Positions 10,102 through 27,094 of a DNA stretch of 64,000 nucleotides are shown here, piece by piece. The stretch spans positions 5,703,995-5,767,994 of the forward strand of contig NZ_HG322949.1 of the NCBI RefSeq assembly GCF_000723165.1, in the 5' to 3' direction. Numbering within the stretch: position 1 is the first letter of the stretch; every line of letters begins with the position of its first letter. The translations under genes and the position numbers were made by a program. Under the pieces are notes generated by a model, which worked only from the letters and a program-made list of their open reading frames with translations, was not told the origin of the DNA and did not search any database. This DNA is from Janthinobacterium agaricidamnosum NBRC 102515 = DSM 9628. GTDB lineage: Bacteria; Pseudomonadota; Gammaproteobacteria; Burkholderiales; Burkholderiaceae_D.

Positions 10102-10245
10102 ATGGAAGCTGTTATTAGCCAAGAATTTGATTTTGAAATCCTCGAAATGAGCGAAGCTACTGCAATGGAAGAAATGGGCGCATCGTCGACCATTTGCGCT
10201 GGCTCGACTTGCACCAAGGCCGTAGAGCAAGAAAGTTCCTGCTAA
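10102..10245 (+). CDS. RiPP precursor peptide, thiopeptide/TOMM-like (47 aa)
   Basis: A small gene with a strong ribosome-binding site (AGGGAGAG at 10090-10097) and ATG at 10102. The first 27 residues are an acidic leader (FDFEILEMSEATAMEEMGA at 9-27) containing the FDxEILEM-type helix used for leader recognition. The remaining 20 residues, SSTICAGSTC then TKAVEQESSC, hold five Ser, three Thr and three Cys, the substrates of YcaO and LanB enzymes. The Met-Gly-Ala end of the leader resembles that of thiocillin-type precursors, which are cut before a Ser that enters the pyridine ring. Unlike thiopeptide cores, Ser1 is followed by Ser, no Ser is preceded by Cys, and a charged KAVEQE stretch interrupts the core. 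It directly precedes the maturation genes. Cleavage site and modifications are inferred. Confidence 0.85.
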   Translation: MEAVISQEFDFEILEMSEATAMEEMGASSTICAGSTCTKAVEQESSC

Positions 10246-10302
10246 GAACCTGTCTTCGCAGGCAATATATTCCTGCTGAATAGGTTTTAAGTGCTTTACT
10301 TC

Positions 10303-10336
10303 CTGCAACGCCGGTCATTTACCGGCCGGTTTGCAG
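10303..10336 (+). terminator. Hairpin between precursor and maturation genes (attenuator or RNA-stability element)
   Basis: CTGCAA (10303-10308) pairs with TTGCAG (10331-10336) and GCCGGT (10310-10315) with ACCGGC (10321-10326), with a five-base loop and a small asymmetric bulge. No U-run follows directly. RiPP operons commonly have a partial terminator or processing hairpin here, so that far more precursor than enzyme is made. Structure is by eye; role inferred. Confidence 0.4.
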
Positions 10337-10409
10337 GCAGGTGCCGCTCCCCGGCCTGGAGTTCGATGGCAGGGGAGCCTCATATTTTTCCCCGAAATAA
10401 CGTGATGCC

Positions 10410-12032
10410 ATGCCGAAAATATTATTAGACGATATATATAACGTTCGGCCCGATATATTTATAAAAGGTGCGGAAGACAGATTGCATGTGCAATACGCCG
10501 GTAAAAACTTTATTCTGCGTTTACAGCATGATGTTATTAATTCGTTATATGACTGTCTCGGCCTGGTCGATGGTATACGTCCGATGGGGGAAGTATTAAC
10601 GGCGATACCGCCTCAGCACCATGCCAGCGCCCTGAAGTTTATGGATTTCCTGGCGAGCAAGCATGCCGCATTCCGCGTGACGAATGTCGATGACGAGCTT
10701 GAACTTGCCGCAGTGAAAGATACTCTGAACTATTTGCGTTTGTACAGCGACGATAGTTCCGCCACCTTCCGCCGCTTTGAACAGGGCCGCATTTTGATCG
10801 TCGCTGGCGGTTTTGCGCTAATGAGCGCGGTGAAAACCTTTGCCCGCCTCGGCACGCGCATGCTGACCGTGATCGATACCGCCGTCGACGGCCAGCCTCG
10901 CTGGAGCGTAGCCGAGCTGCAGCGGTGCTTTGCCGAATTGCGCCGCTGGCCCGATGCCGAGCTGCATGTCATATCGCCGGCGGGGCTGGCGCCGATGCCC
11001 TCTTTCGACCATGTGTTGCACGTGGTTCGGGACGCCGTCGCCGTGCACCAGCGCATATTGACGCAGTGCGCCGCTACCGAGCAATTGATCGCCGTCTACG
11101 TGAATGGCAATCTGTGCCTGCTGCGCAGTGACGATTACCTGCGTGTCGGGGGGCATCCTGGCGAGGGCGGCGCCGTGTCCCAGCCCGGTGAGCTGGTTGC
11201 TGGAGCGACCGCTTCGCTGTTTTTCTTCGATAACCTGTGCAATATTCGCCGCGTCGATGCCGGACGCTATCAGTATTACAAGCTGAACGGTGAAAATGCC
11301 ACGCGCTTCGGCCACCTGTATCGCTTGCTGCCGCTACTGGATGGTCTGACCGGCGATGCTGCGCCCGCAGTGGCTCGCCCATCGTCCGCACCGGCGGTTG
11401 CGGTGGAATTGGAGCGCCTGCTGCATCAACCATTGTTCCCGCTACAGCCGTTGCTTGAACGCACCGATCCAGCGAGCCACATCAAGCTGTATTCCACGGT
11501 ATTGTCCTGGCACGATGGGCGTACCCTGGTTGCGGCCGGCCGTCATAGACGGCAATGCGAGGCCAATCTGTTGGCGCAGCTAGTGTCACTGCATGGTCTC
11601 TGGTTCGATCAAGGCTGCGCCGTCGAGGCGCAAGCCGCATCCGAGTTGCGCGCCAAACAACTGCAGGCTGAGCAGGTGGTGCAGCCGCTGCGCTCCGGCC
11701 AAGCCGCGCAACGGCGGCCATGCACTGTGGAACTTGGGGCGTACGAAACGTATATCGAGTTCTGCATCAACGCCGTCTTTGGCCAGCGCGTGCGCTGGTT
11801 CGTGCTGCCGACCGCCGACGCACGGTTCAGCGCCTGCACCGTATTGTGCGCCGGTCACACGACGCTGTTCCTGCCGCATGGCGGTGAATTGCCGCCGGAC
11901 TTGCGCGAGGCCGCCTTGCTGGCCTTGTACGCGGCGTTGTGGCAACAGCGCAATGGCATCGCGCCGATCCAGGATGTGCTGGTCGCTGCGAGCCCGTTCC
12001 TGGCGCTGACCGAACCTGTCGCCGCCGCATGA
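10410..12032 (+). CDS. TOMM/thiopeptide ThiF-like partner protein with N-terminal leader-binding domain
   Basis: A 540-residue protein, first enzyme gene of the operon. Residues about 15-95 look like a RiPP recognition element: a strand-rich section (GAEDRLHVQYAGKNFILRL) followed by helices around LYDCLGLVDGIRPMGEVLTA. Residues about 128-160 carry a Rossmann-like GRILIVAGGFALMSAVKTFA, and LGTRMLTVID, the pattern of ThiF/E1-like (ocin-ThiF) proteins that bind the leader and hand the core to the YcaO enzyme. No adenylation or cysteine pair of true E1 enzymes is evident, as usual for partner proteins. Its stop overlaps the YcaO start (ATGA at 12029). In thiocillin clusters the counterpart is TclI. 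Assignment rests on context plus these patterns. Confidence 0.65.
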   Translation: MPKILLDDIYNVRPDIFIKGAEDRLHVQYAGKNFILRLQHDVINSLYDCLGLVDGIRPMGEVLTAIPPQHHASALKFMDFLASKHAAFRVTNVDDELELAAVKDTLNYLRLYSDDSSATFRRFEQGRILIVAGGFALMSAVKTFARLGTRMLTVIDTAVDGQPRWSVAELQRCFAELRRWPDAELHVISPAGLAPMPSFDHVLHVVRDAVAVHQRILTQCAATEQLIAVYVNGNLCLLRSDDYLRVGGHPGEGGAVSQPGELVAGATASLFFFDNLCNIRRVDAGRYQYYKLNGENATRFGHLYRLLPLLDGLTGDAAPAVARPSSAPAVAVELERLLHQPLFPLQPLLERTDPASHIKLYSTVLSWHDGRTLVAAGRHRRQCEANLLAQLVSLHGLWFDQGCAVEAQAASELRAKQLQAEQVVQPLRSGQAAQRRPCTVELGAYETYIEFCINAVFGQRVRWFVLPTADARFSACTVLCAGHTTLFLPHGGELPPDLREAALLALYAALWQQRNGIAPIQDVLVAASPFLALTEPVAAA

Positions 12033-13729
12033 GCGCCGCGTTACCGTTAGCCGACTACCTTGCGCGCAGCCCGCTGCGCCGGCGGCTGGTGCTGGTGGCG
12101 AACCTGCAGGCCGCCGCTACGGCCGTCGCTCCGGAGCTGCCGCATATTGTCATCATCGCCACCGGCGATACGCTGGCGCTGTTGCCGCTGCGCGGGGCCC
12201 GCTTGCCCGAGTTGCAGGCGGTGCGCGCCTTTTCCAGCGATTTCGCCACATTCCCGCGCTTCCAACGCCGCTGGCGTTGGACTGCCGTGCTGCAGATCCA
12301 GCTTGACGTACTGTTGGGCGAGCTGCTGGCGGCGCTCGACAGCGGCGTTGGCGCTGGCATGTACCTGTATCTGAATGGCGCCTTCAGCCGCAAGTATTTT
12401 CCATCGTCCCAGCCAGCCACGACGGCGCACGCCGCGGCGTTGCCGGCGCCCGATAACGAATCGTGCCGCGCCGGCAATGCTCGCCTGGAAGACATCCTGG
12501 CAGCCTTCGGCAACGCCTCGCTGCACGGCACATCGCTGCATGCCACTCCGGGGCATGACAGTTACCACTGCTATTCGCAGCAGCATCGCATGCTGGGCAT
12601 CGGGCGCGGCGGCACGGAGCGGCAGATGAGGTGCGGCGCGGTATTTGAATATTGCGAGCGCTGGGCCGGCCTGGCCAGGCCGGACAACTGCGTCACCGGC
12701 AGCCATGCCGGCTTGCGGCAGCAGGCGCTGGCGCCGGAGCAATTGCTGGGACTGAGCGAGGAGCAATGTCAGCGCCTGGTGCCGGGATTCCAGCGCGACC
12801 GTGCGATGGAATGGCTGCCCGCGCGCCTGGAAGACGATGGTGGTGCCGCGCTGGTGCCATTGGCCATGGTCAACTACTTGCTCGATCCTGGCGTACCGTT
12901 CAGCCGCTATCAGAACAGCAATGGCTGCGCGCTCGGCAACTCATTCGAAGAAGCCGCGCTGTTCGGGGCGCTCGAAGTGATCGAACGCGATGCGCTGCTC
13001 ACTATGTGGTACAGCCGGTCGACGCCGCCGCGCATCGATGTGGTGGCCACCACGTGCCAGCATACCGCCGGCTTGTTGATGCTGCTCGGGCTGGCCGGTT
13101 ACGACGTGTTGTGCTTTGACATCACGCTCGACTTGCCGGTGCCCAGTACGCTGGTGCTGATGCTCGGGCGCGACAGCGGCAGGTTGGCCGCGTTCGTTAC
13201 GGCGGCCAGCCATCCGCATGCTGCCGTCGCGCTGCGTTCGGCGCTGGCGGAAGCGCAATCGCTGATCGGATCGGCGGAGCGTAATTTCGCCCGCCACCAG
13301 CGGCGCCTGGAGCGCGATCCGGCCGAGCTGCAGCGACTGCGCAACGACAGCCAGGCCTTGTACTACGGCCACGCGGCACAGCGCCATTGTTTCGACTTTC
13401 TCGGCGGCGCCACGCCGTCGCTGGACTATGCCGATTTTATCGCGCGTCACCTGATCGAGCCATGTGCCGCGCCGGCGGCGTACCGGCGGCTGTGCGGGCA
13501 GGCCGCCGACGCAGGCTATCGCCTGGTCTCGGTCGACAATACGCCGGCCATGCTGCAACCGCTGGGACTGGCCAGCGCGCGCGTGTTCATACCCGGCACG
13601 ATACCGCTGGCCTTTGGAGACCATTGCGCCGCGGTGCCGGCGCAGCGGCTGCAACGCGCGGCGCGCCGCGCTCCCTGGGTGCGTCTCGACGCCGATTTGT
13701 CCGCTCCCCTGATCCACCCGCTAGGATAA
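12029..13729 (+). CDS. YcaO-domain azoline-forming cyclodehydratase
   Basis: A 566-residue YcaO protein, expected to use ATP to cyclise Cys (or Ser/Thr) of the precursor core to azolines. The two nucleotide-binding motifs are visible: IGRGGTERQMRCGAVFEYCERW (about residues 190-211) and SNGCALGNSFEEAALFGA, then LEVIERDALL (about 297-325). The start at 12029 is chosen from the ATGA overlap with the partner gene; the longer frame upstream is a shadow. The C-terminus reads APLIHPLG and lacks the PxPxP ending typical of many azoline-forming YcaO enzymes. Counterpart of TclJ in thiocillin biosynthesis. It is unrelated in architecture to the OsmC-YcaO fusion at 2303. Confidence 0.9.
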   Translation: MSAALPLADYLARSPLRRRLVLVANLQAAATAVAPELPHIVIIATGDTLALLPLRGARLPELQAVRAFSSDFATFPRFQRRWRWTAVLQIQLDVLLGELLAALDSGVGAGMYLYLNGAFSRKYFPSSQPATTAHAAALPAPDNESCRAGNARLEDILAAFGNASLHGTSLHATPGHDSYHCYSQQHRMLGIGRGGTERQMRCGAVFEYCERWAGLARPDNCVTGSHAGLRQQALAPEQLLGLSEEQCQRLVPGFQRDRAMEWLPARLEDDGGAALVPLAMVNYLLDPGVPFSRYQNSNGCALGNSFEEAALFGALEVIERDALLTMWYSRSTPPRIDVVATTCQHTAGLLMLLGLAGYDVLCFDITLDLPVPSTLVLMLGRDSGRLAAFVTAASHPHAAVALRSALAEAQSLIGSAERNFARHQRRLERDPAELQRLRNDSQALYYGHAAQRHCFDFLGGATPSLDYADFIARHLIEPCAAPAAYRRLCGQAADAGYRLVSVDNTPAMLQPLGLASARVFIPGTIPLAFGDHCAAVPAQRLQRAARRAPWVRLDADLSAPLIHPLG

Positions 13730-13736
13730 GTATCCC

Positions 13737-14975
13737 ATGATCACGCCGACCGGCCGCCTGGCCGAAGACGAATTCGCTTTCCGTTATTTGTCGCCCAGCG
13801 AGGCGATCACCCACGCCAGGGCGCCGGACCGGTTCGAGCAGAACCACCAGTTCGTTCGCGGCGCCGGCGGCCAGGGCCGCGACGTCGACTTGTCGGCCCT
13901 GTTCCGCGCGCTGGTGACCGGGCAGGAGGCGCCGCGGGGTGAATTGCGCCAGCGCTTGCTGACCGTGCTGCTGCAGGTACACTTGCCGGGCAGCGTGACG
14001 CCGCTGACCGGCTACGGCCTGCATGCGAGCTATCCTTCGCCGCGTGGCTACTATCCGATGCAGTTCCTGCTCGAGGAGCGGGCGCGGGAAGCGCTGTGGC
14101 ATGTGGACATGGATGCGCTCAGCATGCGTCATCTCGGCGCCGCGCCGGCCGGCATCGGCGACGACGCGCCGTATGCCTTGTGTATTAAAACCGATTTCGA
14201 CATCTACGCGCCGCTCTACAATTTGTTCCGCAAGTCGCTGTTTGCACTTGAATGCGGACATTTCTTGTCCGAATTCCTGCTGCTGGCGGGGCAACTGGGC
14301 ATCGGCGTCGCTCCGCAGGTGGCCGCCGGCGCGATCAAGCTGCTGCTGCGCGAGGATGGCTCCACCGAGCCCGTGTCCGACCCGCTGGCGGCGCACCGCC
14401 ACTTCGCGCGCGAGCGCAACAGCGGCCGCTTTTTCCGCGGCTTCTTTCCCGCGCCATCGACATTCTGCCAGCAGCATCTGGCACAGCTCACGGCCGCCAT
14501 CGGTGACGCGGTGCGCGAGGCCGTGCGCCTCTTCCCCGGTGCGCAGCGGCTGAAGCTGACCGCCAAGCTGTGCCTGCGCGCCAGCCCGGGGGTAGCCGCA
14601 GGCATCTATCGGGTCGACCCGGACGGCCTGGCCTGCCTGACGCCGGACGATCCGATCGACCACTGCGAACGTCTGTATAACTATCCCTCATTCAACTTCC
14701 GCTTCGTCCCCGCGATGGTGTTCTGGTGTATCGATGAACTCGCCTATGCATGTGCCGACGACGCTTTCCTGGAAATGAACCTGGTGCTCGGCTTTCTTAA
14801 CCAGCAGTTGATCCGCGTGATCCTGGACGGCGAAATGCTGGGCCGCCCCTTCCGCAGCTACGACCAGCTCGGCATCGACCGCTTGCTGCGCAACGCCGAC
14901 GATGGGGTGCGCACCTACTATGGCTTGATGGTGGTGCGCAACCGCTGCGGCGACGCGCTCGGTGTGCTGCGATGA
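13737..14975 (+). CDS. SagB/McbC-type azoline dehydrogenase (nitroreductase fold)
   Basis: A 412-residue protein that most likely oxidises azolines to azoles with FMN. The N-terminal half has LTGYGLHASYPSPRGYYPMQ, the position where SagB proteins carry their Ser-Gly-Gly/Tyr-Pro loop, followed by strand LWHVDMDALSMRHLG. The core helix FALECGHFLSEFLLLAGQLG (about residues 173-192) matches the flavin-binding helix of nitroreductases (A-x-x-x-G-x-x-x-x-N/E-x-x-L-x-A-x-x-L-G). The second half is less conserved. It starts 8 bases after the YcaO gene and ends overlapping the LanB gene (ATGA at 14972). Counterpart of TclN. Confidence 0.7.
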   Translation: MITPTGRLAEDEFAFRYLSPSEAITHARAPDRFEQNHQFVRGAGGQGRDVDLSALFRALVTGQEAPRGELRQRLLTVLLQVHLPGSVTPLTGYGLHASYPSPRGYYPMQFLLEERAREALWHVDMDALSMRHLGAAPAGIGDDAPYALCIKTDFDIYAPLYNLFRKSLFALECGHFLSEFLLLAGQLGIGVAPQVAAGAIKLLLREDGSTEPVSDPLAAHRHFARERNSGRFFRGFFPAPSTFCQQHLAQLTAAIGDAVREAVRLFPGAQRLKLTAKLCLRASPGVAAGIYRVDPDGLACLTPDDPIDHCERLYNYPSFNFRFVPAMVFWCIDELAYACADDAFLEMNLVLGFLNQQLIRVILDGEMLGRPFRSYDQLGIDRLLRNADDGVRTYYGLMVVRNRCGDALGVLR

Positions 14976-17464
14976 GTACATCCTCGACGCTGGTGCCGTA
15001 CGTGGTGGTGCGCGCCAATAATCTGCCGCTCGACAGCCTGTCCGCGCTGATGGGGGCGCAGCAATCGGAACAGCGGCTGGCCGCGCTGCACACGGCCAGG
15101 GAGCGGCTCGACGCCATGCGCGGGCAGGTGTGCGCGCTGCTGTTCGAGCTGGCGTCCACCGGCTGCGCCGAGTATCGCCTGATGATCGCTGCCAAGCGCG
15201 CCATCTTCAGCCGCGCCGCCATCGCGTCGGTGCTGGCGCGCTTCGGCAAGTTACTGGCAAGCCATGACGCGCTGCTGCCCTGGCTGCGCCAGGCACAGGC
15301 GGTGCAGCAGCAGGAAGCGGCGCTGCTGGCGCTGTTCGATCGCGCCACGGAGGATGCGCGCGCCGCCGCGCGCGTCCTGGTGCGCCAGCCCAGCTTCCTG
15401 CAAGGACTGGCGATGACGCGCGGCCAGGTCTATCGCGCCGCGCTGGCCTACGCCGGCAGCGTCAGCGTGCAGGGCAAGAAAGCGCTGAACGACGAGGAAA
15501 CGCTGTTTCGCTACCTGACCCGCGGCATTGCCAAGGTCAGTCCATTCTCGTCGTTCACCTCGGTGGGCTTCGCGCCCTTGCAGGCAGGTGCCGAGGAACG
15601 CGCCACGCTGCTTCGCTCGCGCCGCAGCGAGGATCGTTTCAGCCTGGATCGGGCGACCTTGATGAAGCTGTTCGAGCGGTTTCTGCTGCGCCATTACGCG
15701 CACTGGCGTTTCCGCCTGACAGAAAACTGCCGCGAGGTCGATGGCGAACAGCACTATTACCTGTTCGGTGATCGTGCCGATGTCTATCCTTACCGTACCT
15801 CGTTCAGCAAGACGCGCTTTCCGAACGTGGCCTTGTTCGCCGCCGAGGACGGCCAACCGGGCTGGCTGTCCTGGAATACCATTGCGCAGCGGCTGCCGGC
15901 GGGCGCCGATCCCGCCGCGGTGCTGCAAAAATGGCTGATGGCGGGGGTGTTGAACTTTCAGCCCCGCCTCGACGAGGAAAGTGCCCACCTGCTGCAGGAC
16001 TTTCTGGCCATCGCCCGCAGCGTCGCCGCAACTGATGCGTCGGCGGCGCCGGTGGCAGAGGTACTGGCGGAGATGGACACGGCATACAGACAATTTCCAG
16101 GCGCCGATCCGGCCACGCTGTTCGAGCGGGTCGACGCCTTGCACGGCGGGCTGCAAACCCTGTCCGCGCTGCTCGGCTGGCCGCTGGTCAAAACCGGCGG
16201 CCTGGTATATCACGACAGCTACCTGCCCGAGCTGGCCCCGCTGTCGGAGGCGATGGTGGGCAATTACGGCGCGCAGATCCGCGAATTCGTCGCGCACTAC
16301 CTCGGCTACAACTTCAACAGCGGCTATTCGGATGCGATGCTGGCCACGCTGCGCGCGGCGCTGGCCGGCGGCCGCACGATGAAGGTGTTCGACTTCTATG
16401 AACTGGTACAGCAGACCGTGGCGCGCCATGCTGCCGACCGGGTGCAACCCGAGAGCAAGACGCTGCGCCTGATCGGCTTGTACGAGCAGATCTGGGCGCG
16501 CCGCGGCGCCGCCGAGATCGTGCTCGACGCCGTGCCCGCCGCGCCGGCGCGCGGCATCTCCTTCGCCGCTTACGGCCACCTGATGGACGGCTGCTTTGTG
16601 CTCAATAATATCGATAGCGGCTACTTGCGCTGTTATTCGCGTTTCTTCACCTTCGGCGCGTCCGGCGACGTGCTGGAGCAGTGCCGCGCCGCCTATGGCG
16701 CCGAGCTCGAGGAGGCCTACGATATTTATGACACCTTCGGCTTCAACACCGCCTTCCGGCCGCGCATCTGCGGCCGCCGCATCTGGCTCGATGGCGCGCC
16801 GGACAGCGGCGGCGCCGATGTCCGGCTCTCCGAGCTAAGTGTGCACTGGCCCGAGCAAGCGGCTTATCCGGTGTTGAGCGCCGGGCCCGGCGGCCGGCCG
16901 GTACACCTGCGCCAGACCGGCCTGTTCGTCAAGGAACTGTACCCGCGCCTGCTGGAGATGCTGATGCGTTTCAGCATGGCCGACGCGCCGTGCTATTTCG
17001 CCTTCCGTTTCGGACTGCACAAGATGGTGGCCGATGCCGGCCAGCGCGGCGTCATCCGGATTCCGCGCATCCGCTACCGCGATGTGGTGCTGTCGCGCCA
17101 GCAGTGGTGGGTCGACCGGGACAGCCTGCCGCAGCGCGCCGCCGGCGAAGAGGCGGCCCGCTATCTGCTGCGCCTCGACGCCTGGCGCCGCGCGCATGGC
17201 TTGCCGCAGCGCGTGTTCCTGCGGCGTCACCTGGCCGCCAAGGTGCTCGACCGCGACGTTTCCAACGGCAAGAAACCGGTGCTGCTGGACTTCGCGGCGC
17301 CGATCATGGCGCGCATGACTGGCCGTATGTTCTCCAGCGCGTTCGACCTGGCCTCGCTCGAGGAAGTGCTGCCCGACAGCGACAACGCGTATGCATCCCA
17401 TGGCGGCCAGCGCTACGCCAGCGAAATCATCTTTGAAGTAACCCCGGGTACGCCCACCTTGTGA
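14972..17464 (+). CDS. Lantibiotic dehydratase N-terminal (glutamylation) protein, thiopeptide type
   Basis: An 830-residue protein of the LanB N-terminal family. Such enzymes use glutamyl-tRNA to esterify Ser/Thr side chains, which are later eliminated to dehydroamino acids. The N-terminal pattern PYVVVRANNLPLDSLSAL and the stretch LFRYLTRGIAKVSPFSSFTS (about residues 174-193) are hallmarks, as are FTFGASGDVLEQC, and DIYDTFGFNTAFRPRICGRR, near the middle and the RFGLHKMVADAGQR segment late. There is no elimination domain at its C-terminus; that function is on separate genes at 21108 and 21980, the split typical of thiopeptide rather than nisin-type systems (TclK counterpart). Overlaps the dehydrogenase by four bases. 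Confidence 0.85.
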   Translation: MSTSSTLVPYVVVRANNLPLDSLSALMGAQQSEQRLAALHTARERLDAMRGQVCALLFELASTGCAEYRLMIAAKRAIFSRAAIASVLARFGKLLASHDALLPWLRQAQAVQQQEAALLALFDRATEDARAAARVLVRQPSFLQGLAMTRGQVYRAALAYAGSVSVQGKKALNDEETLFRYLTRGIAKVSPFSSFTSVGFAPLQAGAEERATLLRSRRSEDRFSLDRATLMKLFERFLLRHYAHWRFRLTENCREVDGEQHYYLFGDRADVYPYRTSFSKTRFPNVALFAAEDGQPGWLSWNTIAQRLPAGADPAAVLQKWLMAGVLNFQPRLDEESAHLLQDFLAIARSVAATDASAAPVAEVLAEMDTAYRQFPGADPATLFERVDALHGGLQTLSALLGWPLVKTGGLVYHDSYLPELAPLSEAMVGNYGAQIREFVAHYLGYNFNSGYSDAMLATLRAALAGGRTMKVFDFYELVQQTVARHAADRVQPESKTLRLIGLYEQIWARRGAAEIVLDAVPAAPARGISFAAYGHLMDGCFVLNNIDSGYLRCYSRFFTFGASGDVLEQCRAAYGAELEEAYDIYDTFGFNTAFRPRICGRRIWLDGAPDSGGADVRLSELSVHWPEQAAYPVLSAGPGGRPVHLRQTGLFVKELYPRLLEMLMRFSMADAPCYFAFRFGLHKMVADAGQRGVIRIPRIRYRDVVLSRQQWWVDRDSLPQRAAGEEAARYLLRLDAWRRAHGLPQRVFLRRHLAAKVLDRDVSNGKKPVLLDFAAPIMARMTGRMFSSAFDLASLEEVLPDSDNAYASHGGQRYASEIIFEVTPGTPTL

Positions 17465-17474
17465 CAGAAACGCT

Positions 17475-18890: not shown

Positions 18891-20017
18891 AATGCTTCGT
18901 GGTGATGACGCCGCAAAGCGCCGGCCGGTTGCCGGTGCGCGAATCGTGCCGCAGCGTCATGCATGGCACGCCGGTTGACTTTGCCGTCATCGAGAAAGAC
19001 GACATCGATTTCGACGCCGGCGACGAGCGGCATGCGCACCATGTGCTGATACGCGTGCATGCGTTTTCGTGCAACTACCGCGAGCAGGCGCGCTTCCTGA
19101 ACGTGGCGCGCCAGGACGATGGCAAGGGCTACCTGGTGCTCGGCTCGGAGTTTGCCGCCACGGTAGTCAAGACGGGGCCGCTGGTGCAGGGCTTCAAGCC
19201 GGGCGACCGGGTGTTTGGCAACGGTTCGGTCGACGACAGCGCCGGCCATCTGGGGCTGACCACCCAGCGCGGTTCGGCCGAGCTGCAGATCTGCCATGAA
19301 GCCAAACTGATGCGTTTCCCCGATAGCATGCCGCTGGCCGAAGCCGCCGCCTTCAGCGTCGGCGCGCAGACCGCGTATGCGCTGGTGCGCCGGCTTGAGC
19401 TGCGTCCGGAGCACCATGTGCTGGTGACGGCCGCGGCATCGAATACCGCGCAGTTCGCGATCCACGCCTTGCTGGCCAAGGGGCACCGGGTGCACGCGCT
19501 GACCACTTCGCCGCACATGCGCGCCCACCTCGCCGAACTCGGCGTCGAGGGCTGCTGCGTGCTGGACCGCAAGCAGCCTCCCCATGATGCGCTGGCCGCC
19601 TACCTGGCGCAGCATGGCATGGCCAAGTTCGACGCGGTGATCGATCCGTTCATGGATGTCTATCTGCGCAAGCTGGTGCCGCATCTGCAGCGTGGCGGCA
19701 AGTACATTACCTGCGGCGTGTACGAACAGTTCAGCGCGCCCCATGACCCGTTCGCTTATCGCGGCCTGTCGCTGGACGAGATGTTCAGCCTGATCATCCG
19801 CAAGAACCTGCATGTAATCGGCAACAACCTCGGCGACCGCGCCGACCTAGAGGCGGCCTTGGCCGATTACAGCGCCGGGCGCCTGCCGGTGGCGCTGGAC
19901 GCCGTATTCGGCGCCGGCCAGCTGGAGCCGTTTATTGCCCGTTCCTACCTGGCCGGCGACCGGCTCGGCAAAGTCGTCTTCGATTACCGCACCACCCACA
20001 CAGGAATCCATTCATGA
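18887..20017 (+). CDS. Medium-chain dehydrogenase/reductase, enoyl (crotonyl-CoA) reductase-like
   Basis: A 376-residue protein starting at GTG 18887, which overlaps the MATE stop (GTGA). It has the MDR fold: an N-terminal GroES-like domain with HVLIRVHAFSCNYREQARF, the GDRVFGNGSV turn, and a Rossmann domain around LVTAAASNTAQFAIHALLAK with GHRVHAL. The Cys-His zinc pattern of alcohol dehydrogenases is absent; the SCNYRE motif is more like that of zinc-free crotonyl-/acrylyl-CoA reductases that hydrogenate activated double bonds. In a cluster making dehydroalanine this suggests reduction of Dha/Dhb to D-Ala/D-Abu, as MDR-type LanJ enzymes do in some lanthipeptides. The family is clear; the role is inferred. 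Confidence 0.75.
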   Translation: MKCFVVMTPQSAGRLPVRESCRSVMHGTPVDFAVIEKDDIDFDAGDERHAHHVLIRVHAFSCNYREQARFLNVARQDDGKGYLVLGSEFAATVVKTGPLVQGFKPGDRVFGNGSVDDSAGHLGLTTQRGSAELQICHEAKLMRFPDSMPLAEAAAFSVGAQTAYALVRRLELRPEHHVLVTAAASNTAQFAIHALLAKGHRVHALTTSPHMRAHLAELGVEGCCVLDRKQPPHDALAAYLAQHGMAKFDAVIDPFMDVYLRKLVPHLQRGGKYITCGVYEQFSAPHDPFAYRGLSLDEMFSLIIRKNLHVIGNNLGDRADLEAALADYSAGRLPVALDAVFGAGQLEPFIARSYLAGDRLGKVVFDYRTTHTGIHS

Positions 20018-20535
20018 TCAAAGCCCTCCTTACGCTGGCGCTCGGCGCCAGTACGGCCGCCGCCGCCGCCGCCCCGTCGCCGCTCCAGCATATCCGCATC
20101 GATGCCGGCGGCGTCGACGTGGAATTAATCGACGTGCCGCCTGATACGCCGCCTGAACTGAGCTACCGTGCCCAGGGAACCTGCCAGCCGGAAGTGGAAA
20201 TCACCACCGTCGGCGAAGTGCTGCAGGCGCGCCATCTGAAAAGCTGCCATGGCAAGGGCGATCACGAAGGAACCGTATTCACGCTCAGGCTGTCTGCCCA
20301 ATCGAGTTTCTCGCTGGAGCTGGGCGCCGGCGGTGTGCGCATCAGCGGCGGGATGGCGCAATACAAGCGCATCGACCTGGCGGTCAAGGTCGGCGGCATC
20401 CATAACCACCGGCGCGACCTGGCGCTCGAGCGGCGTCGCCCGTTCCTGGTCGGCGCGGCGGCCAGCCTGCAGCGCGACACGGGCGAACAGGCGATGCAGG
20501 TGGCGCTCACATATGGCGGCATCAGCCTGTATTAA
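20014..20535 (+). CDS. Exported beta-rich protein of the RiPP operon (paralogue A), unknown function
   Basis: A 173-residue protein with a signal peptide (MIKALLTLALGASTAAAAAA). The mature part is rich in short strands ending in G-x-I turns: FSLELGAGGVRISGG, then RIDLAVKVGGIHNH, and a C-terminal MQVALTYGGISLY. This is reminiscent of DUF4097-like putative adhesin repeats. It contains two cysteines (in TCQPE and SCHGK). The next gene encodes a protein of the same size and layout, so the two appear to be paralogues. It is translationally coupled to the reductase (ATGA at 20014). Perhaps a periplasmic immunity or carrier protein; I do not recognise the family securely. Confidence 0.7.
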   Translation: MIKALLTLALGASTAAAAAAPSPLQHIRIDAGGVDVELIDVPPDTPPELSYRAQGTCQPEVEITTVGEVLQARHLKSCHGKGDHEGTVFTLRLSAQSSFSLELGAGGVRISGGMAQYKRIDLAVKVGGIHNHRRDLALERRRPFLVGAAASLQRDTGEQAMQVALTYGGISLY

Positions 20536-20574
20536 ATTCACCTGCCCAGTTAACCGATCCCAAGGAAATACGCG

Positions 20575-21111
20575 ATGCAAAAACATATCATAGGCGGCTT
20601 GCTGCACCTGGCCGCGGCGTGCTCGGCGCCGGCGGCGCTGGCCGAAGAAACCACGCTCGACCTGAGCCGCGGGCACTTCCTGGTGCGCATGGACGCCGGC
20701 GTCGAGTCGTACGCGCTGCGCGCCCTGCCGCAGCCGCACGCCTGCCTGCCCGCGCTGGCGCTGGAACGGCAGGCCGGCGGGGCTTATCGCGTGGTCAGCA
20801 GCGATCCTGATTGCCAGACTGAGCCCTACGCCGAATTGCTGCTCAATCCGGACTGGAGCCCGGCGCTGCATATTCAGCTCAGCGGCGGGCAGATCGACTT
20901 CGCCTCGTCGCTGTGGGACAGCCTGTCGACGCTGCAGGCCAGCGTCTCGATGGGCGACATTTTCGGGCCCGACGGCGTGCAGCGCTATCGCTTGCTGGGC
21001 GCCAGGCTGGCGCTCGACCGGCAACGCGTGGGAATCCGTTTGCGGGTGTCGGTGGGCGCCGGCCAGATCACGCTGGACATGCCGCCGCGGCAAAGCTTGT
21101 CGAGCCGATGA
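20575..21111 (+). CDS. Exported beta-rich protein of the RiPP operon (paralogue B), unknown function
   Basis: A 178-residue protein with an N-terminal signal sequence ending near CSAPAALAEE. The mature protein repeats the plan of its neighbour: two cysteines in the first half (HACLPA, DPDCQT), then LHIQLSGGQIDFASSLWDSL, an LQASVSMGDIFG segment, and a C-terminal IRLRVSVGAGQITLDMP. The G-x-I endings align with those in paralogue A, so I take the pair as an ancient duplication. Predicted periplasmic or outer-membrane associated. Its stop overlaps the SpaB_C gene (ATGA at 21108), which ties it to the maturation genes. Confidence 0.7.
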   Translation: MQKHIIGGLLHLAAACSAPAALAEETTLDLSRGHFLVRMDAGVESYALRALPQPHACLPALALERQAGGAYRVVSSDPDCQTEPYAELLLNPDWSPALHIQLSGGQIDFASSLWDSLSTLQASVSMGDIFGPDGVQRYRLLGARLALDRQRVGIRLRVSVGAGQITLDMPPRQSLSSR

Positions 21112-21983
21112 ACGCGGCGCTGCCCGAGCAGGATGGCCGCGGCTGGAGTTCGCTGCATGTCTTCATTCACGATTTTTCCCGGCTGACCCATTTCATCCAG
21201 ACCTGTCTGGCCGGATTGCCGGCGTCGTTGCGCGAGCATTGTTTTTTCGTGCGCTACTGGCTGGGCGGCCCGCACCTGCGTATCCGCTTCCGCGACGCGG
21301 CCCTGTTGCCCACGCTCGAAGCGGCGGTCAGCCGTTACTGGGAAGAACATCGGTTTGTCGCCGCGCTCGACCCCGAGCTGTTTTACCGCGGCTACGCCAG
21401 CCACCTGGAGACGGAAAAGGAACGCTATTGGCACGCCAATGGCAGCATGCACCTGATTGCCTACCAGCCCGAGACGGCGCGCTACGGCGGTCCTGCCGGT
21501 CTGGCCCTGTGCGAAGACGAATTTATCAGCGATAGCCGGGTGATGCTGGCCATGCTGCGGCAGGAAGCGCCGGCGCAACTGGAAAAGATCCTGTTCGGTT
21601 ACTGCCTGATCCATGGCCACATCCTTGCCCGGCATGGACTGCACCGCGATTATCTGCGTTTCACGTGCGGCAGCGCGCAGGCGGACGCGGTGCGGCGCCA
21701 CGTCGCCCTGCGTTCGGCCGGCAAGATCCCGCCATTGCATGCATCGCTGCTCGCGCAGCATGACAGCGTGCTGCGCGGAGCGTACTTCCCCGAGTATCTG
21801 CTGCCGCTGGGGCAGCGCCTGGGCACGCTGGTGGCCCGGCTGGCCGACAGCGGCTGCACCGGCATCCCGGCGATTTGCACGTCACTGCTGCATATGTCGT
21901 TCAACCGCGCCGGCGTCACGCCGGCCAAGGAAGCGAATATCCGGCTGTTCTCCTTTTACGTCCTGAATGAGGCCTATCAATGA
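21108..21983 (+). CDS. Thiopeptide-type SpaB_C domain protein (candidate glutamate-elimination enzyme)
   Basis: A 291-residue stand-alone SpaB_C (lantibiotic dehydratase C-terminal) domain. Diagnostic stretches are CFFVRYWLGGPHLRIRFRDA (about residues 45-64), IAYQPETARYGGPAGLALCE (about 120-139), FISDSRVMLAML, and the C-terminal SLLHMSFNRAGVTPAKEANI. In nisin-type LanB this domain removes glutamate to give dehydroamino acids; in thiopeptides it is a separate protein (TclL type). The ATG at 21108 overlaps the previous stop, and the longer frame from 20913 is a shadow. Because two SpaB_C-like proteins sit in tandem, which one eliminates and which one cyclises cannot be told from sequence; this one is closer to the ordinary family pattern. 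Confidence 0.85.
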   Translation: MNAALPEQDGRGWSSLHVFIHDFSRLTHFIQTCLAGLPASLREHCFFVRYWLGGPHLRIRFRDAALLPTLEAAVSRYWEEHRFVAALDPELFYRGYASHLETEKERYWHANGSMHLIAYQPETARYGGPAGLALCEDEFISDSRVMLAMLRQEAPAQLEKILFGYCLIHGHILARHGLHRDYLRFTCGSAQADAVRRHVALRSAGKIPPLHASLLAQHDSVLRGAYFPEYLLPLGQRLGTLVARLADSGCTGIPAICTSLLHMSFNRAGVTPAKEANIRLFSFYVLNEAYQ

Positions 21984-23101
21984 AGTTCATGCAGCTGCGG
22001 ATCAACTACACGGAAAACCATGGCCGCTTTTACCATGAATTGCTAGTGCCGCTGCAGCGCTGGCTGGCGGAGCGCTATTTCTATCGCTGGAACATCGCGC
22101 GCGGCTGGCAAAACGGCCCGCATTATCTGCTGACGCTGGACGCCGGCGCACCGTTCTACCGCGATGCGTGGCAGGCGGCGCTGCTCGAGCGCAGCAATAC
22201 CTTCCTGCAGCGCTGTCCATCGTCTCCGCTCGACGCCGCCGCTCACCGGGCGCTGCAAGTCCGGCTCAATACGCTGGAGGCGGCCGGTATCGATCCGGAT
22301 GTGATTGAACCGAATAATACGGCGAGTGTGCACATGACGACGCTGGAGCAACTGGCGGCGAAGTACGAGTCGCCGCAGCAATGGCGCAGCGTATTCGACA
22401 CGCAGATCCGCCTGCACAAGGCCGTGGTGGCGCATTGGTCCGGCGCCGATGGCGGCATCAACGAGCGCTTCGCATTCGAATTGATGGTCATGCTGGCCTG
22501 CGTTTATCCGCCCGCGCCATCCGACGATCCCGAGGTGTTTGAGTATAACGGCTTCCTGTCGTATCACTCGAACTATGTGTTCTGGCGCCACGGTCTCAAA
22601 CCCGAACAGCAAGCCATCATCGATCGCCGTTTCAGCGATGGGTATGGCGCCGCGCACGGCAGCTATCTGTGCTGGCTGGACGCGCTGGAAGCGGACCTGG
22701 CGCAAGCGGGCCACCGCAGCAGCGAATTGGCGCAGGCGCTGGTGGCGAGCTTCCTTGAGCATTGCCAGCTGGCCCGGGATGGCGTGATCCATGCGCGCTC
22801 GCCGTTTGCGCGCGAACGCCTGGCGGACCAGCAGCAGGTGTCCGCCTTCCACCAGCGCTATTTTTATGACGAGGATGGCGGCGCCAGGGCATTCGGCCTG
22901 GAATTCAGCGCCTATCGCTGGCTGCTCAACATTGTTTACCGTACTTTGCCGCTGCTGAATATTTCGCCGATGACGCGCCAGATGCTGAACTACGCGCTGA
23001 ACCGGCTGCAGCAGGAACAGGCGCCGGCGATCGGCCGTATTCGCGTCGCCATGCTGACAAGCGGCACGCCGGCCGCCCCTATCATGAAAGCGGCCGCCTG
23101 A
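21980..23101 (+). CDS. Second, divergent SpaB_C-like protein (candidate [4+2] cyclase or second lyase)
   Basis: A 373-residue protein. The N-terminus LRINYTENHGRFYHELLVPL, then YFYRWNIARGWQNGPHYLLTLDAG, matches the beginning of SpaB_C-like proteins, with QNGPHYLLTL in place of the common GGPHLRIRF. Further in are YESPQQWRSVFD and a helical C-terminal part with NIVYRTLPLLNISPMTRQML. Its length and divergence fit the TclM role in thiocillin-type pathways, where a SpaB_C relative joins two dehydroalanines into a pyridine and releases the leader. Overlaps its neighbour by four bases. The fold assignment is moderate and the cyclase role is inferred from gene-set completeness, not from catalytic residues. 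Confidence 0.65.
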   Translation: MKFMQLRINYTENHGRFYHELLVPLQRWLAERYFYRWNIARGWQNGPHYLLTLDAGAPFYRDAWQAALLERSNTFLQRCPSSPLDAAAHRALQVRLNTLEAAGIDPDVIEPNNTASVHMTTLEQLAAKYESPQQWRSVFDTQIRLHKAVVAHWSGADGGINERFAFELMVMLACVYPPAPSDDPEVFEYNGFLSYHSNYVFWRHGLKPEQQAIIDRRFSDGYGAAHGSYLCWLDALEADLAQAGHRSSELAQALVASFLEHCQLARDGVIHARSPFARERLADQQQVSAFHQRYFYDEDGGARAFGLEFSAYRWLLNIVYRTLPLLNISPMTRQMLNYALNRLQQEQAPAIGRIRVAMLTSGTPAAPIMKAAA

Positions 23102-23138
23102 CAGGCGCCGCGCCCACTCCTGAAAGACGAGGAATCTC

Positions 23139-23831
23139 ATGCGCATGACCAAACTGAACCTCCTGATTGCCTGCCTGCTGCTGCTGGCGGGCCTGGCCGC
23201 CGCCTGGAGCGTGTACTTCTCGACGGTGCGCGAGCAGCAGCCGGCCTATCTGGAATTGCCCAAGCCGGCAACGCCGGCATCCGCCGGCAAGATCGAAGTG
23301 ATCGAATTTTTCTGGTATGGCTGTCCGCATTGCTATAAATATAATGATGTGCTGGATGCGTGGGTTGCAAAGCATGCCGACCGTATCACCCTGCGCCGGG
23401 TGCCGTTCGCCGTGCGCGACAAGCAGATTCCCCAGCAAAAAATGTACTATGCCTTCGATGCGCTGGGTAAACTGGATGACATGCATGCGCTGATCTTTGA
23501 GAAAATCCATCTCGGCCACAAGCCCTTGAACACCGACGACAGCATCAGCGTTTTCGCGCAAGAGCAGCGCATCAGCAAGGAGCAATGGCAGGCCGCCTAC
23601 CAATCGCCGCAAGTGCAGGAAAAGATACAAGAGGCCGACAGGCTGCAGCACGATTACAAGGTGGAGCGGGTGCCGTCGGTGGTCATCGGGGGACGCTATC
23701 TGACCTCGCCCGGCATGGCTGGCATGAAGCTGCCTTACTGGGGGCAGACCGACGAAATGCGCTACAGCGCGGCGGAGAAGATCATGGATGAATTGCTCGC
23801 CAGGGTAGAGCAGGAAGGGCGTTTGCGCTGA
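23139..23831 (+). CDS. DsbA/DsbL-like thiol:disulfide oxidoreductase
   Basis: A 230-residue exported protein: an N-terminal hydrophobic segment (LLIACLLLLAGLAAAWSVYF), then a DsbA-like thioredoxin fold with IEVIEFFWYGCPHCYKYN carrying the C-P-H-C active site and, near the end, VERVPSVVIGGRYLTSPGM with the cis-proline loop (VPS) and the G-x-Y-x-T/S pattern of DsbA. The helical insert lies between. The classic housekeeping DsbA would not be expected inside a RiPP operon, so this copy may oxidise or protect cysteines of the two paired exported proteins or of the TonB receptor plug. 37 bases after the SpaB_C gene; its stop shares a base with the next start. Confidence 0.85.
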   Translation: MRMTKLNLLIACLLLLAGLAAAWSVYFSTVREQQPAYLELPKPATPASAGKIEVIEFFWYGCPHCYKYNDVLDAWVAKHADRITLRRVPFAVRDKQIPQQKMYYAFDALGKLDDMHALIFEKIHLGHKPLNTDDSISVFAQEQRISKEQWQAAYQSPQVQEKIQEADRLQHDYKVERVPSVVIGGRYLTSPGMAGMKLPYWGQTDEMRYSAAEKIMDELLARVEQEGRLR

Positions 23832-25993
23832 TGCCGTTCCGAACGCAGCGATGCCGCCTGCTGCTGCTGCTGCTTGCCGGCACGATGTGCGCCGCCACGG
23901 CCCGCCATGCCGCCGCTGCCGGGCCGGTCAAGATGGAAACCGTCGAAGTGCGCGCCGATACCTCGGGCTATGACGCGCGGCGCGACGACACCGCCAACAA
24001 GGTAGTGGTCCAGCATGACGAAATCATGAAATTTGGCGACACCATGGTGAGCGATGTGCTCAAGCGGCTGCCCGGTATCACCGTTAGCGGCGCGCCCGGG
24101 CGCGGCGGGGAAATCCGCATGCGTGGATTGGGCAGCGGTTATACCCAGATCCTGCTCAACGGCGAACGGGCCCCGGCCGGCTTCTCGATCGACTCGCTGG
24201 CGCCGGGCGTCATCGAGCGCATCGAAGTGCAGCGCGCGGCCAGCGCGGAGTTTTCCACCGAGGCCATTGCCGGCACCATCAACATCGTGCTGAAAAAGGC
24301 CATCGGCACGGCGCAGCGCGAATTCAAGCCCGCTGTTGGCGGCGGTGGCGGCTATTTCATGCCGGGTTTTAACCTGCAGTTGTCCGACCGCAAGGATGAC
24401 ATGTCGTATTCGCTGGCGGTCAACGGCGTCTACAATCATATCCGGCGCGACAATCCGTCCTGGGACGAGGCCGACGACGAGACTGGAACGGCCACGCTGC
24501 GGCGCGCCAGCGGCAACCGCAGCGACGGCATCTTCCGTGGCCTGTTTCTGGTGCCGCGGGTGAGCTGGACGCTGGCCGGCGGCGATACCCTGACGCTGCA
24601 GGCCTTCGTCAACGCGACCCGCTTCAGCCAGGACAGCGCCATCCACACCGCGACCACCCTGGGGGCGCCGCCGCCCTATCCCGGCAGCGACGACACAATA
24701 CGCGACAGCGGCGCACTGCTGCGAACGGACTTGAGCTGGATGCACAAGCTGGGCGGCGGCGCCAAGCTCGATAGCAAAGCCGGCTTCACCGTGTCCGGCA
24801 ACGACAGCGATCTCGATCAGACCGGCTTCTTCACCCCGGCCGTGCCGACGCTGCGCCGCCGTGTCGGCATCCACTCCGTCGAGCGCGGCTTGAGCTGGAC
24901 CGGGAAATATCTCAGCACCGCGGTGAACGCCCACGCGCTGTCGCTGGGCTGGGACAGCAGTTACAGCCGCCGTGCCGAGGATCGCAGCCAGCGCGACAGC
25001 GTCCCGTCCGGCTGGGTCGAGGCCGGCAATGAAGACAGCGCGGCTCAAGTGTCGAGGCTGGCGTTGTACGCGCAGGACGAGTGGGATGTCAGTCCGGCTT
25101 ACGCGCTCTATATGGGGGCGCGCTGGGAAGGTATCCGCGTGCGCAGCGATGTGAACGGCTACGCCGGCACCAGCAGCAGCCATGTCTGGAGCCCGTTGCT
25201 GCAGATGCTGTACAAGATACCCGGCACCAAGTCGGATCAGTTGCGGCTGGCGCTGACGCGTACTTACAAGGCGCCCGCCGCCGCCAACCTGACGCCGCGC
25301 CGCTTGCTGTCGATCAATAACAGCCCGACCGAGCCTGACCGCCAGGGCAATCCCGGGCTGCGTCCCGAACTGGCGCTGGGGATCGATGCTTCTTATCAGC
25401 ATTATTGGGCTGAGCGGGCCTTGTTCTCGGCCAGCGTATCGGGCCGCGGCATCAGCAACTACACCCGCACGGCATTGTCGCTCAGCGATGGGCGCTGGAT
25501 GGCGATGCCTGTCAACGATGGCGGCGCGCGTACCTACAGCGTCGAACTGGAGGTGAAGTTCCCGCTGCGCACGCTGTGGCGGGCGGCGCCCGCGCTGGAT
25601 GTGCGCGCCAGCGCCAGCCGCAATTGGTCGCGGGTTGAATCGGTGCCGGGGCCGGACAACCGCCTGGACCAGCAGACTCCGCTGTCCGCCATGCTGGGCG
25701 CGGATTACCGGATCGGCCAGGTCTCCGTGGGCAGCAGCCTGACGTTCAAGAACGGCGGTCCGGTACGCATCTCCGACACGCAAGCGGCTTACCAGTCTGT
25801 GCGGCGCGACCTGGATGCGTATGTGCTGTGGAAGGTGAGGCCGAAAGATCATCTGCGATTCGGGCTGTCGAATATTTTGCGGCAGGACCAGGTCTCGGAG
25901 AAAATCTACCTGGACCAGGGGGGGGTACTACGCCGCATTTCGCTTGCTCCGGGCACGCTGCAGGCGCGCCTGACATGGGAGATGGTTTTCTAG
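23831..25993 (+). CDS. TonB-dependent outer-membrane receptor
   Basis: A 720-residue receptor. After a signal peptide comes a TonB-box-like METVEVRAD (about residues 36-44), then the plug domain with VSDVLKRLPGITVSGAPGRGGEIRMRG split over about 73-100, LLNGERAPAG, and VIERIEVQRAASAEFSTEAIAGTINIVLKKA. The remainder is a repetitive beta-barrel, ending in a C-terminal Phe (WEMVF) as outer-membrane proteins do. It lacks an N-terminal signalling (STN) domain, so it is a transporter, not a FecA-type sensor. As last gene of the RiPP operon it could bring the peptide, or its metal complex, back in, or be the uptake route of a metallophore. Start TGATG overlap with dsbA-like gene. Confidence 0.85.
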   Translation: MPFRTQRCRLLLLLLAGTMCAATARHAAAAGPVKMETVEVRADTSGYDARRDDTANKVVVQHDEIMKFGDTMVSDVLKRLPGITVSGAPGRGGEIRMRGLGSGYTQILLNGERAPAGFSIDSLAPGVIERIEVQRAASAEFSTEAIAGTINIVLKKAIGTAQREFKPAVGGGGGYFMPGFNLQLSDRKDDMSYSLAVNGVYNHIRRDNPSWDEADDETGTATLRRASGNRSDGIFRGLFLVPRVSWTLAGGDTLTLQAFVNATRFSQDSAIHTATTLGAPPPYPGSDDTIRDSGALLRTDLSWMHKLGGGAKLDSKAGFTVSGNDSDLDQTGFFTPAVPTLRRRVGIHSVERGLSWTGKYLSTAVNAHALSLGWDSSYSRRAEDRSQRDSVPSGWVEAGNEDSAAQVSRLALYAQDEWDVSPAYALYMGARWEGIRVRSDVNGYAGTSSSHVWSPLLQMLYKIPGTKSDQLRLALTRTYKAPAAANLTPRRLLSINNSPTEPDRQGNPGLRPELALGIDASYQHYWAERALFSASVSGRGISNYTRTALSLSDGRWMAMPVNDGGARTYSVELEVKFPLRTLWRAAPALDVRASASRNWSRVESVPGPDNRLDQQTPLSAMLGADYRIGQVSVGSSLTFKNGGPVRISDTQAAYQSVRRDLDAYVLWKVRPKDHLRFGLSNILRQDQVSEKIYLDQGGVLRRISLAPGTLQARLTWEMVF

Positions 25994-26219: not shown

Positions 26220-27071
26220 ATGTCGCACACAGCATTATTCAGTGACCGTTTGAGCGTCGTAGCGCAAGCAGGCCGGCGACTGCCTTTTTTGATCGGCGCC
26301 ACGCGGCGTCCGGGCATGCTGTGCGCGGCGCTGGCCGCGCTGCTGGGCTGTTTGCCGGCCGCCGCGCAGGAAGCCCCCGCCAGCGCATCGGCCAGCGTCG
26401 CGCAATGGGGCCTGGGCTTCAGCGCCGGCAGCCTGCGCAAGCCCTACAAGGGCGTCGCCAATCAAACGGTGGGAGTGCCGATCGTGCTGTACGAAAACCG
26501 CTGGCTCAGCGCCGCCGGGCCGCTGGTCGATCTCAAGTTGCCAGTCACGGGGCCGGTTTCCTTCCGCCTGCGGGCCCGCTATGAACCGGGCGCCGGCTAC
26601 GATGCCGGCGACTCGGCCGCCCTGTCCGGCATGGAACACCGGAAAACCGGCTTGTGGCTGGGCGGCGCCGTGCTGTGGCGCAGCGCCATCGCCGACGTCG
26701 GCGCAGAATGGCTGGCCGACGCGTCCGGCTACAGCAAGGGACAGCGCGCCACATTCAGCGTGCAGCGCCGTTTTCCGATGGGGAATTTCTCTGTTACGCC
26801 ACGCCTCGAAGCCAGCTGGCTCGATCATAAGAATGCGAGCTACTATTATGGCGTACGGACCGGAGAAGCCGTGGCCGGCCGCCCGTTCTACGAAGCGGGC
26901 AGCACCGTCAATACGCGGCTGGGAGTTCGGCTTGACTATCGCATCATGCCACGCCACGCAGTGTTTTTCGATGTCAGTGCAACACGCCTGGGCAGCGAGA
27001 TCAAGGACAGTCCGATCGTCGACCGCGCCAGTGCGTCATCGGCCTTCGTGGGCTATACGTATCTGTTTTGA
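26220..27071 (+). CDS. MipA/OmpV family outer-membrane protein
   Basis: A 283-residue protein with a long N-terminal stretch leading to a signal sequence (MLCAALAALLGCLPAAAQEA) and a MipA/OmpV barrel: WGLGFSAGSLRKPYKGVANQ, the VPIVLYENRWLSAAGPLVDLK segment with pieces typical of MipA, and a C-terminal aromatic ending VGYTYLF. MipA-like proteins are scaffolds for murein synthesis or barrels induced through two-component systems. It starts after a GGAG box and is followed 23 bases later by a response regulator, so the three genes look like an operon and the kinase may sense an envelope or metal stress that alters MipA level. Confidence 0.85.
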   Translation: MSHTALFSDRLSVVAQAGRRLPFLIGATRRPGMLCAALAALLGCLPAAAQEAPASASASVAQWGLGFSAGSLRKPYKGVANQTVGVPIVLYENRWLSAAGPLVDLKLPVTGPVSFRLRARYEPGAGYDAGDSAALSGMEHRKTGLWLGGAVLWRSAIADVGAEWLADASGYSKGQRATFSVQRRFPMGNFSVTPRLEASWLDHKNASYYYGVRTGEAVAGRPFYEAGSTVNTRLGVRLDYRIMPRHAVFFDVSATRLGSEIKDSPIVDRASASSAFVGYTYLF

Positions 27072-27094
27072 GATAGTCTATCCGGGGTAAATAC

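Follow-up and report, generated by a model that had tools for sequence, protein, structure and literature searches.

A candidate operon for a thiazole-bearing pyridine peptide with a small ring in the Gram-negative bacterium Janthinobacterium agaricidamnosum

Most bacteria with thiopeptide clusters are described, in the excerpts of the cited articles on which this account draws, as actinobacteria or bacilli (PMC10128021). Known thiopeptide rings were given in 2020 as 26- to 35-membered; lactazole (laz), from Streptomyces, has a 32-membered ring formed between Ser1 and Ser12, and within its Ser10-Ser11-Ser12-Cys13 motif the cycloaddition residue Ser12 stands directly before Cys13 (PMC7210931). 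The pyritides of Micromonospora rosaria (mro) have 14-membered (A1) and 17-membered (A2) rings, the MroBCD enzymes make rings of 14 to 23 members, and a thiazole-bearing pyritide has been made by mixing pathways (PMC9247985). Goadsporin carries azoles and dehydroalanines (PMC10676384). Here, we describe an operon of 13 genes (A to M; Table 1), all plus-strand and spanning 10102-25993, among the open reading frames of a 64,000-nucleotide window, the whole stretch of DNA analysed, which covers positions 5703995-5767994 of the single-contig 5.95 Mb genome of Janthinobacterium agaricidamnosum. This organism is a Gram-negative, mushroom-rotting bacterium.

The operon probably encodes a full biosynthetic route to a thiazole-bearing pyridine peptide with a small ring, which in the wide sense is a thiopeptide. 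This assignment draws on the gene families, the predicted fold and aligned catalytic Tyr of the K protein, the elimination residues of the J protein and the pattern of the precursor core. The original prediction, made from the sequence alone, had called a thiocillin-type maturation set, and every part that it named was found in the sequence where it had been placed. The enzymes do make up a thiopeptide maturation set, the ThiF-like and dehydrogenase members being weakly assigned; "thiocillin-type" proved too narrow, given that the core lacks a multi-Cys pattern and that a 20-membered ring is predicted.

The locus shares with the thiomuracin and GE2270 clusters (tbt, pbt) a thiopeptide-type precursor, a YcaO protein, a split LanB with a separate elimination enzyme and a TbtD/PbtD-like pyridine synthase. 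It differs from them in its Gram-negative host, in one invariant Cys where they have a multi-Cys core, in a predicted 20-membered ring where theirs have 26 or more members and in its MATE, MDR and exported proteins. Goadsporin has azoles and dehydroalanines in common with the predicted product, and its LanB-type protein is matched by E. To our knowledge, goadsporin has no pyridine synthase, whereas K is present here. Low Cys/Ser/Thr content and a compact cluster are shared with lactazole (PMC7210931), in contrast to its ring size, serine motif and host. The likeness to the pyritides lies in a leader ending GA/S, a small ring and a split LanB with an MroD-type cyclase; MroA1 (EVGA/SGWLGSWVI) has the same layout as EMGA/SSTICAGSTC here, and its second Ser follows Gly, as in 52 of 65 cores of the present family (PMC9247985). 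The mro cluster, by contrast, is described in the excerpt as having no azole genes and precursors without Cys (PMC9247985). Given that a YcaO gene is present here and that Cys10 occurs in 65/65 cores, the locus is not a pyritide cluster in that narrow sense. Rather, the operon looks like a natural counterpart of the artificial thiazole-bearing pyritide.

The product of gene A is a thiopeptide-type precursor by its score of 43.1 bits against Thiopep_pre (Pfam PF19409, cut-off 23.5), a family matched at E up to 1 by 11 of 11 aligned precursor members. The same 11 members match NCBIfam thiazolyl_B at E up to 1, the window's own precursor reaching 25.8 bits, under the cut-off of 30; the GetA precursor model was reached by only two of the 11 (best 0.48). 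The protein database yielded 61 precursor proteins, the window's own included, and five more from loci brought the set to 66 distinct peptides. The search reaches only relatives that share 5-residue words with the queries and so favours conserved letters. Cores were placed by the string EMGAS, present in 66/66 peptides, and were counted in 65, one peptide (P0100, core STSGATGGSCC...) having been set aside.

Three core positions are invariant: Ser1, Ser8 and Cys10 (65/65 each). Position 2 is Ser in 62 cores and Thr in 3, position 3 Thr in 60 and Gly in 5, position 4 Ile in 51 and Val in 14, position 6 Ala in 61 and Ser in 4, position 7 Gly in 52 and Ser in 13, and position 9 Thr in 56 and Ser in 9. 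Position 5 holds Cys (21), Gly (15), Ala (14), Ser (8), Asp (4) or Met, Phe and Asn (1 each), and position 11 holds Ser (49), Thr (12, the window among them), Cys (2), Gln (1) or Lys (1). Ser occurs at position 12 in 8/65 and at position 13 in 1/65, and later positions are more variable. The leader contains the motif F-x2-L-E (F in 64, L in 62 and E in 66 of 66 peptides), a candidate RRE-binding motif; Lx4F has been reported for Actinomycetota leaders (PMC12710340). Over the 60 bases encoding the leader end and core (20 residues), loci L013, L014, L024 and L022 differ from the window by 5, 8, 9 and 8 synonymous changes, respectively, and by no amino-acid change, and L035, L036, L038 and L019 differ by 7-10 synonymous changes together with amino-acid changes. 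The peptide is therefore under selection. Two precursor genes were observed in some relatives: those of Veronia nyctiphanis (L038 1-400), for which the database gives three precursors on contigs of the same length, are in tandem and differ in the position-5 residue and tail, and those of genome G304 (L022 6000-6800), with SSTICAGSTC (Cys5) and SSTIAAGSTC (Ala5), lie ahead of the same enzymes.

A [4+2] pyridine is built from two dehydroalanines, so Ser is needed at both ring positions. Since only positions 1 and 8 are always Ser, a 20-membered ring is predicted from the relation ring atoms = 3 x (residues between) + 2, which was checked on published rings. Such a ring would be smaller than those of known thiazole-bearing thiopeptides.

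The dehydration machinery was assigned by family and profile. The E protein matches Lant_dehydr_N (PF04738, 2.8e-15) and has no Lant_dehydr_C match in Pfam, in agreement with the LanB glutamylation protein lacking an elimination domain that had been proposed. The first PDB match of its profile (6e-35) is 6ec7, listed as a lantibiotic dehydratase domain protein, which we take to be TbtB; the goadsporin protein 9jhq is also matched (2e-16). The J protein matches Lant_dehydr_C (PF14028, 6e-30), scores 78.5 bits against TIGR03891 (cut-off 48.45) and matches NisB by profile (7e-13). Its Arg58, Arg60, Arg125 and His262, the same in 9/9 proteins, align with NisB residues 784, 786, 826 and 961, the elimination residues R784, R786, R826 and H961. 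E and J together represent a split LanB, comprising a glutamylation protein and a separate elimination protein. No LANC family was found among genes B-M in the Pfam scans, and the locus is accordingly not a class I lanthipeptide cluster.

The predicted structure of the K protein gave the pyridine synthases TbtD and PbtD as best matches, at 15-20% identity in structure alignments; the TbtD match was clearly above those to NisB, MibB and MadB, and TbtD/PbtD fitted better than TsrL. The catalytic Tyr is kept in 28/28 proteins. Taken together, the profile and the fold support a TbtD-type pyridine synthase, although the NCBIfam score stays below the equivalog cut-off. Two SpaB_C-like proteins had been predicted; J is one by family, and K was placed by profile and fold. 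The original prediction had named matches outside the peptide-modifying families as refuting, and none was seen: K led to TbtD/PbtD by predicted structure, and E and J led to 6ec7 and NisB by profile.

Of the azole-forming proteins, C is a YcaO protein (PF02624, 2e-56) that scores 198.5 bits over nearly the full SagD-type model TIGR03604 (cut-off 219) and matches TruD and LynD in the PDB. A protein with OsmC, YcaO and YcaO_C domains is encoded by a separate gene at window 2303-4501 on the minus strand, ~6 kb from the cluster, and gene C has no OsmC match in Pfam and is thus not an OsmC-YcaO fusion. A housekeeping YcaO as the source of a false positive was rejected because the finding rests on the other, fuller gene set. 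A published "thiopeptide" cluster of Massilia antibiotica has, in the excerpt available, an NTF2-family and an OsmC/YcaO protein as core genes.

The proposed ThiF-like partner and azoline dehydrogenase fared less evenly. B has no Pfam match; 3 of 19 gene-B family members match TIGR03693 (best 0.0013) and 4 match ThiF TIGR02356 (best 0.0052), the window's own B being among neither group. Residues 12-85 of B align to PbtF with an E value of 0.23, at which two unrelated PDB chains score equally well or better. The best sequence match of D reached only 0.058, no PDB match was found by profile search and 0/8 gene-D members matched an NCBIfam model; its predicted structure, with a pLDDT of only 61, resembles nitroreductases, ThcOx and an McbBCD chain in fold.

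Several observations weigh against the proposed pathway or its ring register. K scores 52.8 bits against NCBIfam TbtD_PbtD, where the equivalog cut-off is 325, and has no Lant_dehydr_C match in Pfam. The assignments of B and D are weak. As assembled, G373 and Veronia have an interrupted gene G and Veronia also an interrupted gene D, and one TGA lies in the K frame of Pseudoduganella buxea; not every copy of the cluster need therefore be active. The P0100 core has Ser9-Cys-Cys instead and would give a 23-membered ring. Given that the precursors are related and were found by shared 5-residue words, 65/65 overstates the constraint. Furthermore, Ser12 of lactazole directly precedes Cys13, whereas Ser8 here precedes Thr or Ser at position 9 and the Gly or Ser at position 7 is not necessarily an azole; the pyridine may accordingly form in another register. 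The same chemistry with a Ser2-Ser8 (17-membered) ring, or with closure at residue 9 or residue 11 (29-membered), is nevertheless rather unlikely. Such registers would accommodate the adjacent serines at 1 and 2, the lactazole precedent of a Ser directly before Cys (residue 9 here) and the Ser at residue 11 in 49/65 cores, the window not included; yet Thr replaces Ser at position 2 in 3/65 and at position 9 in 56/65, residue 11 is Thr in 12 and Cys, Gln or Lys in 4, and Ser1 and Ser8 are never Thr. We know of no dehydrobutyrine in such a pyridine.

The match of E to the goadsporin protein, the distance of K from the TbtD/PbtD cut-off and its 15-20% identity to those enzymes would also suit a linear or differently crosslinked azole/dehydroalanine peptide, with K not a pyridine synthase. 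The adjacency of elimination-type and TbtD-type proteins, the catalytic Tyr in every K protein aligned and the ranking of the fold matches make this quite improbable. Finally, a six-membered ring that stays reduced (piperidine or dehydropiperidine, as in thiostrepton), with G as the reductase and a host protease removing the leader, is highly improbable, as K matches TbtD/PbtD better than TsrL, two relatives (L017, L029) carry an interrupted gene G in their assemblies and no protease family was found among the operon genes in the Pfam scans.

For the preferred pathway to a Ser1-Ser8 pyridine, we infer each chemical step, the ring register, transport and function as follows. B would present the leader to the YcaO protein C and the dehydrogenase D, which would convert Cys10, and perhaps also Thr9, Ser2 and Cys5, to azoles. 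E would glutamylate Ser1 and Ser8 (perhaps also Thr3 and Thr11), and J would eliminate the glutamate to give dehydroalanines. K would then catalyse a [4+2] cycloaddition of dehydroalanines 1 and 8, expelling the leader as an amide and leaving a pyridine that closes the 20-membered ring, residues 9 onward forming a tail. G may reduce a dehydroamino acid residue. Export would be through the MATE protein F, and the TonB receptor of this host may re-import a related peptide.

The operon recurs in other genera, with enzymes mostly 31-74% identical (gene B 24% in Veronia). This recurrence, and a peptide kept despite synonymous changes, argue that the operon is not a chance assembly. Relatives were confirmed in 4 of 59 pattern stretches (Oxalobacteraceae sp. 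CFBP 13730, Pseudoduganella buxea, Chitinimonas prasina and Veronia nyctiphanis). K matches were found in 10 of 392 genomes of the family sample, 8 of them (own included) over most of K and 2 weak, in unrelated loci. Only the own genome was matched by K in the genus sample (1/40), by the K profile in the phylum sample (1/398) and by the precursor profile in the class sample (1/369). Its occurrence thus seems infrequent and scattered, a pattern that would be compatible with horizontal spread. The two weak matches were not counted as relatives: no operon gene surrounds that in G276 (L021), and that in G113 (L020) belongs to a different cluster. The latter, from the same bacterial family, contains a full-length LanB of 1274 amino acids (10726-14547) and a YcaO of 610 amino acids (16608-18437), and maybe makes another azole/dehydro peptide.

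In eight clusters the region is covered: the window, G363, G106, G304, G373, P. buxea (over two contigs), Chitinimonas and Veronia. F, G and H occur in 8/8 and I in 7/8; the MATE exporter F and MDR reductase G had been omitted from the original prediction. The TonB receptor, DsbA-like protein and exported proteins that it listed are all present in the window, and the first two are not supported as core parts: DsbA is linked in 6/8 clusters (in four of these upstream of the precursor and divergent), and a close receptor adjoins the cluster in 2/8, namely the window and L013/L026 (a 64% copy). Other receptor matches were 24-31% identical over short stretches (tblastn, 1e-3 or 1e-2). Among the H/I proteins, 2 of 15 members gave a weak Pfam match (0.0049, 0.13). 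A MacB/FtsX permease lies between I and J in G106 (Pfam), with a similar open reading frame in G304. Two further clusters are partial (G361, L019; G308, L018). In the Chitinimonas cluster (L028 3331-9133), J and K are accompanied by an HlyD-type protein, a sigma-54 activator and, judged from their open reading frames, an ABC ATPase and permease resembling a MacB-like exporter; this suggests regulated tripartite export.

Among the operon genes, the Pfam scans gave no match to ribosomal-protein, rRNA-methylase or EF-Tu families, which would have indicated self-protection at the usual thiopeptide targets; MATE export may serve as self-protection. Lactazole A is reported to have no antibacterial activity (PMC7210931). 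We lean towards an exported peptide with a putative role in competition or signalling. Thiostrepton, thiocillin and micrococcin enter Pseudomonas aeruginosa via TonB-dependent siderophore receptors (PMC10128021), and by analogy, speculatively, the M receptor may import such a peptide.

J. agaricidamnosum DSM 9628 was listed with "one bacteriocin" cluster among its orphans (PMC4400430), and an antiSMASH cluster "linaridin and thiopeptide-lantipeptides" was printed in 2016 (PMC5080296); the latter call could come from either the OsmC-YcaO gene or the real cluster. Neither article, in the text consulted, analyses the cluster. NCBI labels precursors in Pseudoduganella, Massilia, Veronia, Rheinheimera and Pseudoalteromonas "thiopeptide-type bacteriocin", and genome mining has listed uncharacterised "thiopeptide" clusters in Pseudoalteromonas strains (PMC12819058, PMC7333567). 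The operon is therefore uncharacterised rather than unseen, its precursor family and class label being already in print or in databases, which qualifies the new family that had been proposed. Among the matches listed from the open-access literature, we found no paper dealing with the enzymes or the product of a pyridine-forming thiopeptide operon from a Gram-negative bacterium. As far as checked, novelty lies in assigning the pathway, in the Ser1/Ser8/Cys10 rule and in predicting a 20-membered ring.

On balance, and by a slight preference, we favour the view that a Beta-/Gammaproteobacteria lineage makes natural azole-bearing 20-membered pyridine macrocycles (Ser1-Ser8) with one obligatory thiazole, a size class between pyritides and thiopeptides, in which the hypervariable ring position 5 and variable tail amount to natural diversification of the scaffold and the product is handled in two-membrane cells by proteins of the periplasm and outer membrane. 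If true, this would be a Gram-negative branch with a compact operon and one required Cys that bridges thiopeptides and pyritides; it would supply simpler enzymes for cyclic peptide production and pose the question of the peptide's role, exit and entry in such cells.

Table 1. Genes and intergenic feature of the operon, in window coordinates.
Feature	Position	Strand	Assignment	Basis
A	10102..10245	+	Precursor peptide, 47 amino acids; leader end EEMGA, core SSTICAGSTCTKAVEQESSC	Thiopep_pre
Gap A-B	10246..10409	+	Strong RNA hairpins; may act as an attenuator or processing site	Folding against shuffles; function inferred
B	10410..12032	+	Probable leader-binding (RRE) ocin-ThiF-like partner	Weak matches, supported by position
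C	12029..13729	+	YcaO cyclodehydratase, putative azoline formation	PF02624
D	13737..14975	+	Probable azoline dehydrogenase, nitroreductase fold	Predicted fold
E	14972..17464	+	LanB-type glutamylation enzyme without elimination domain, TbtB-like	PF04738
F	17475..18890	+	MATE-family exporter	PF01554 3e-16
G	18887..20017	+	MDR/quinone-reductase-like enzyme	PF08240 2.7e-09; TIGR02823 2.4e-15, below cut-off
H	20014..20535	+	Small, probably exported protein, related to I	Signal-like N terminus; aligns with I
I	20575..21111	+	Small, probably exported protein, related to H	Translation; aligns with H
J	21108..21983	+	Glutamate-elimination enzyme, TbtC-like SpaB_C domain	PF14028
K	21980..23101	+	Putative pyridine synthase, [4+2] macrocyclase, TbtD-like	Profile and predicted fold
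L	23139..23831	+	DsbA-like thiol oxidoreductase	PF01323 8.5e-13
M	23831..25993	+	TonB-dependent receptor	PF00593 4e-22, Plug 1.6e-17

The tight packing of the operon was confirmed. Overlaps of 1-4 bases join B/C, D/E, F/G, G/H, I/J, J/K and L/M, and spacers of 7 (C-D), 10 (E-F), 39 (H-I) and 37 (K-L) bases separate the others, the exception being 164 bases after A. Genes C, G and J were scanned against families with longer mechanical starts; the more likely starts are 12029, 18887 (GTG) and 21108, respectively. Directly downstream of the operon (window 26220-29121) lie a MipA-family protein and then a response regulator and sensor kinase. In the genus sample, the MipA-type gene was itself matched in no more than 3 of 40 genomes, counting the own genome, so no empty insertion site is readable. 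The promoter scan gave one promoter-like site against a mean of 2.0 in shuffles and thus no evidence for a promoter. The first 150 bases of the A-B gap fold more stably than 200/200 shuffles (z -3.72), and in the matching gap of the relative L013 (z -3.15) 1/200 shuffles was equally stable. These hairpins would fit an attenuator that yields more precursor than enzyme.

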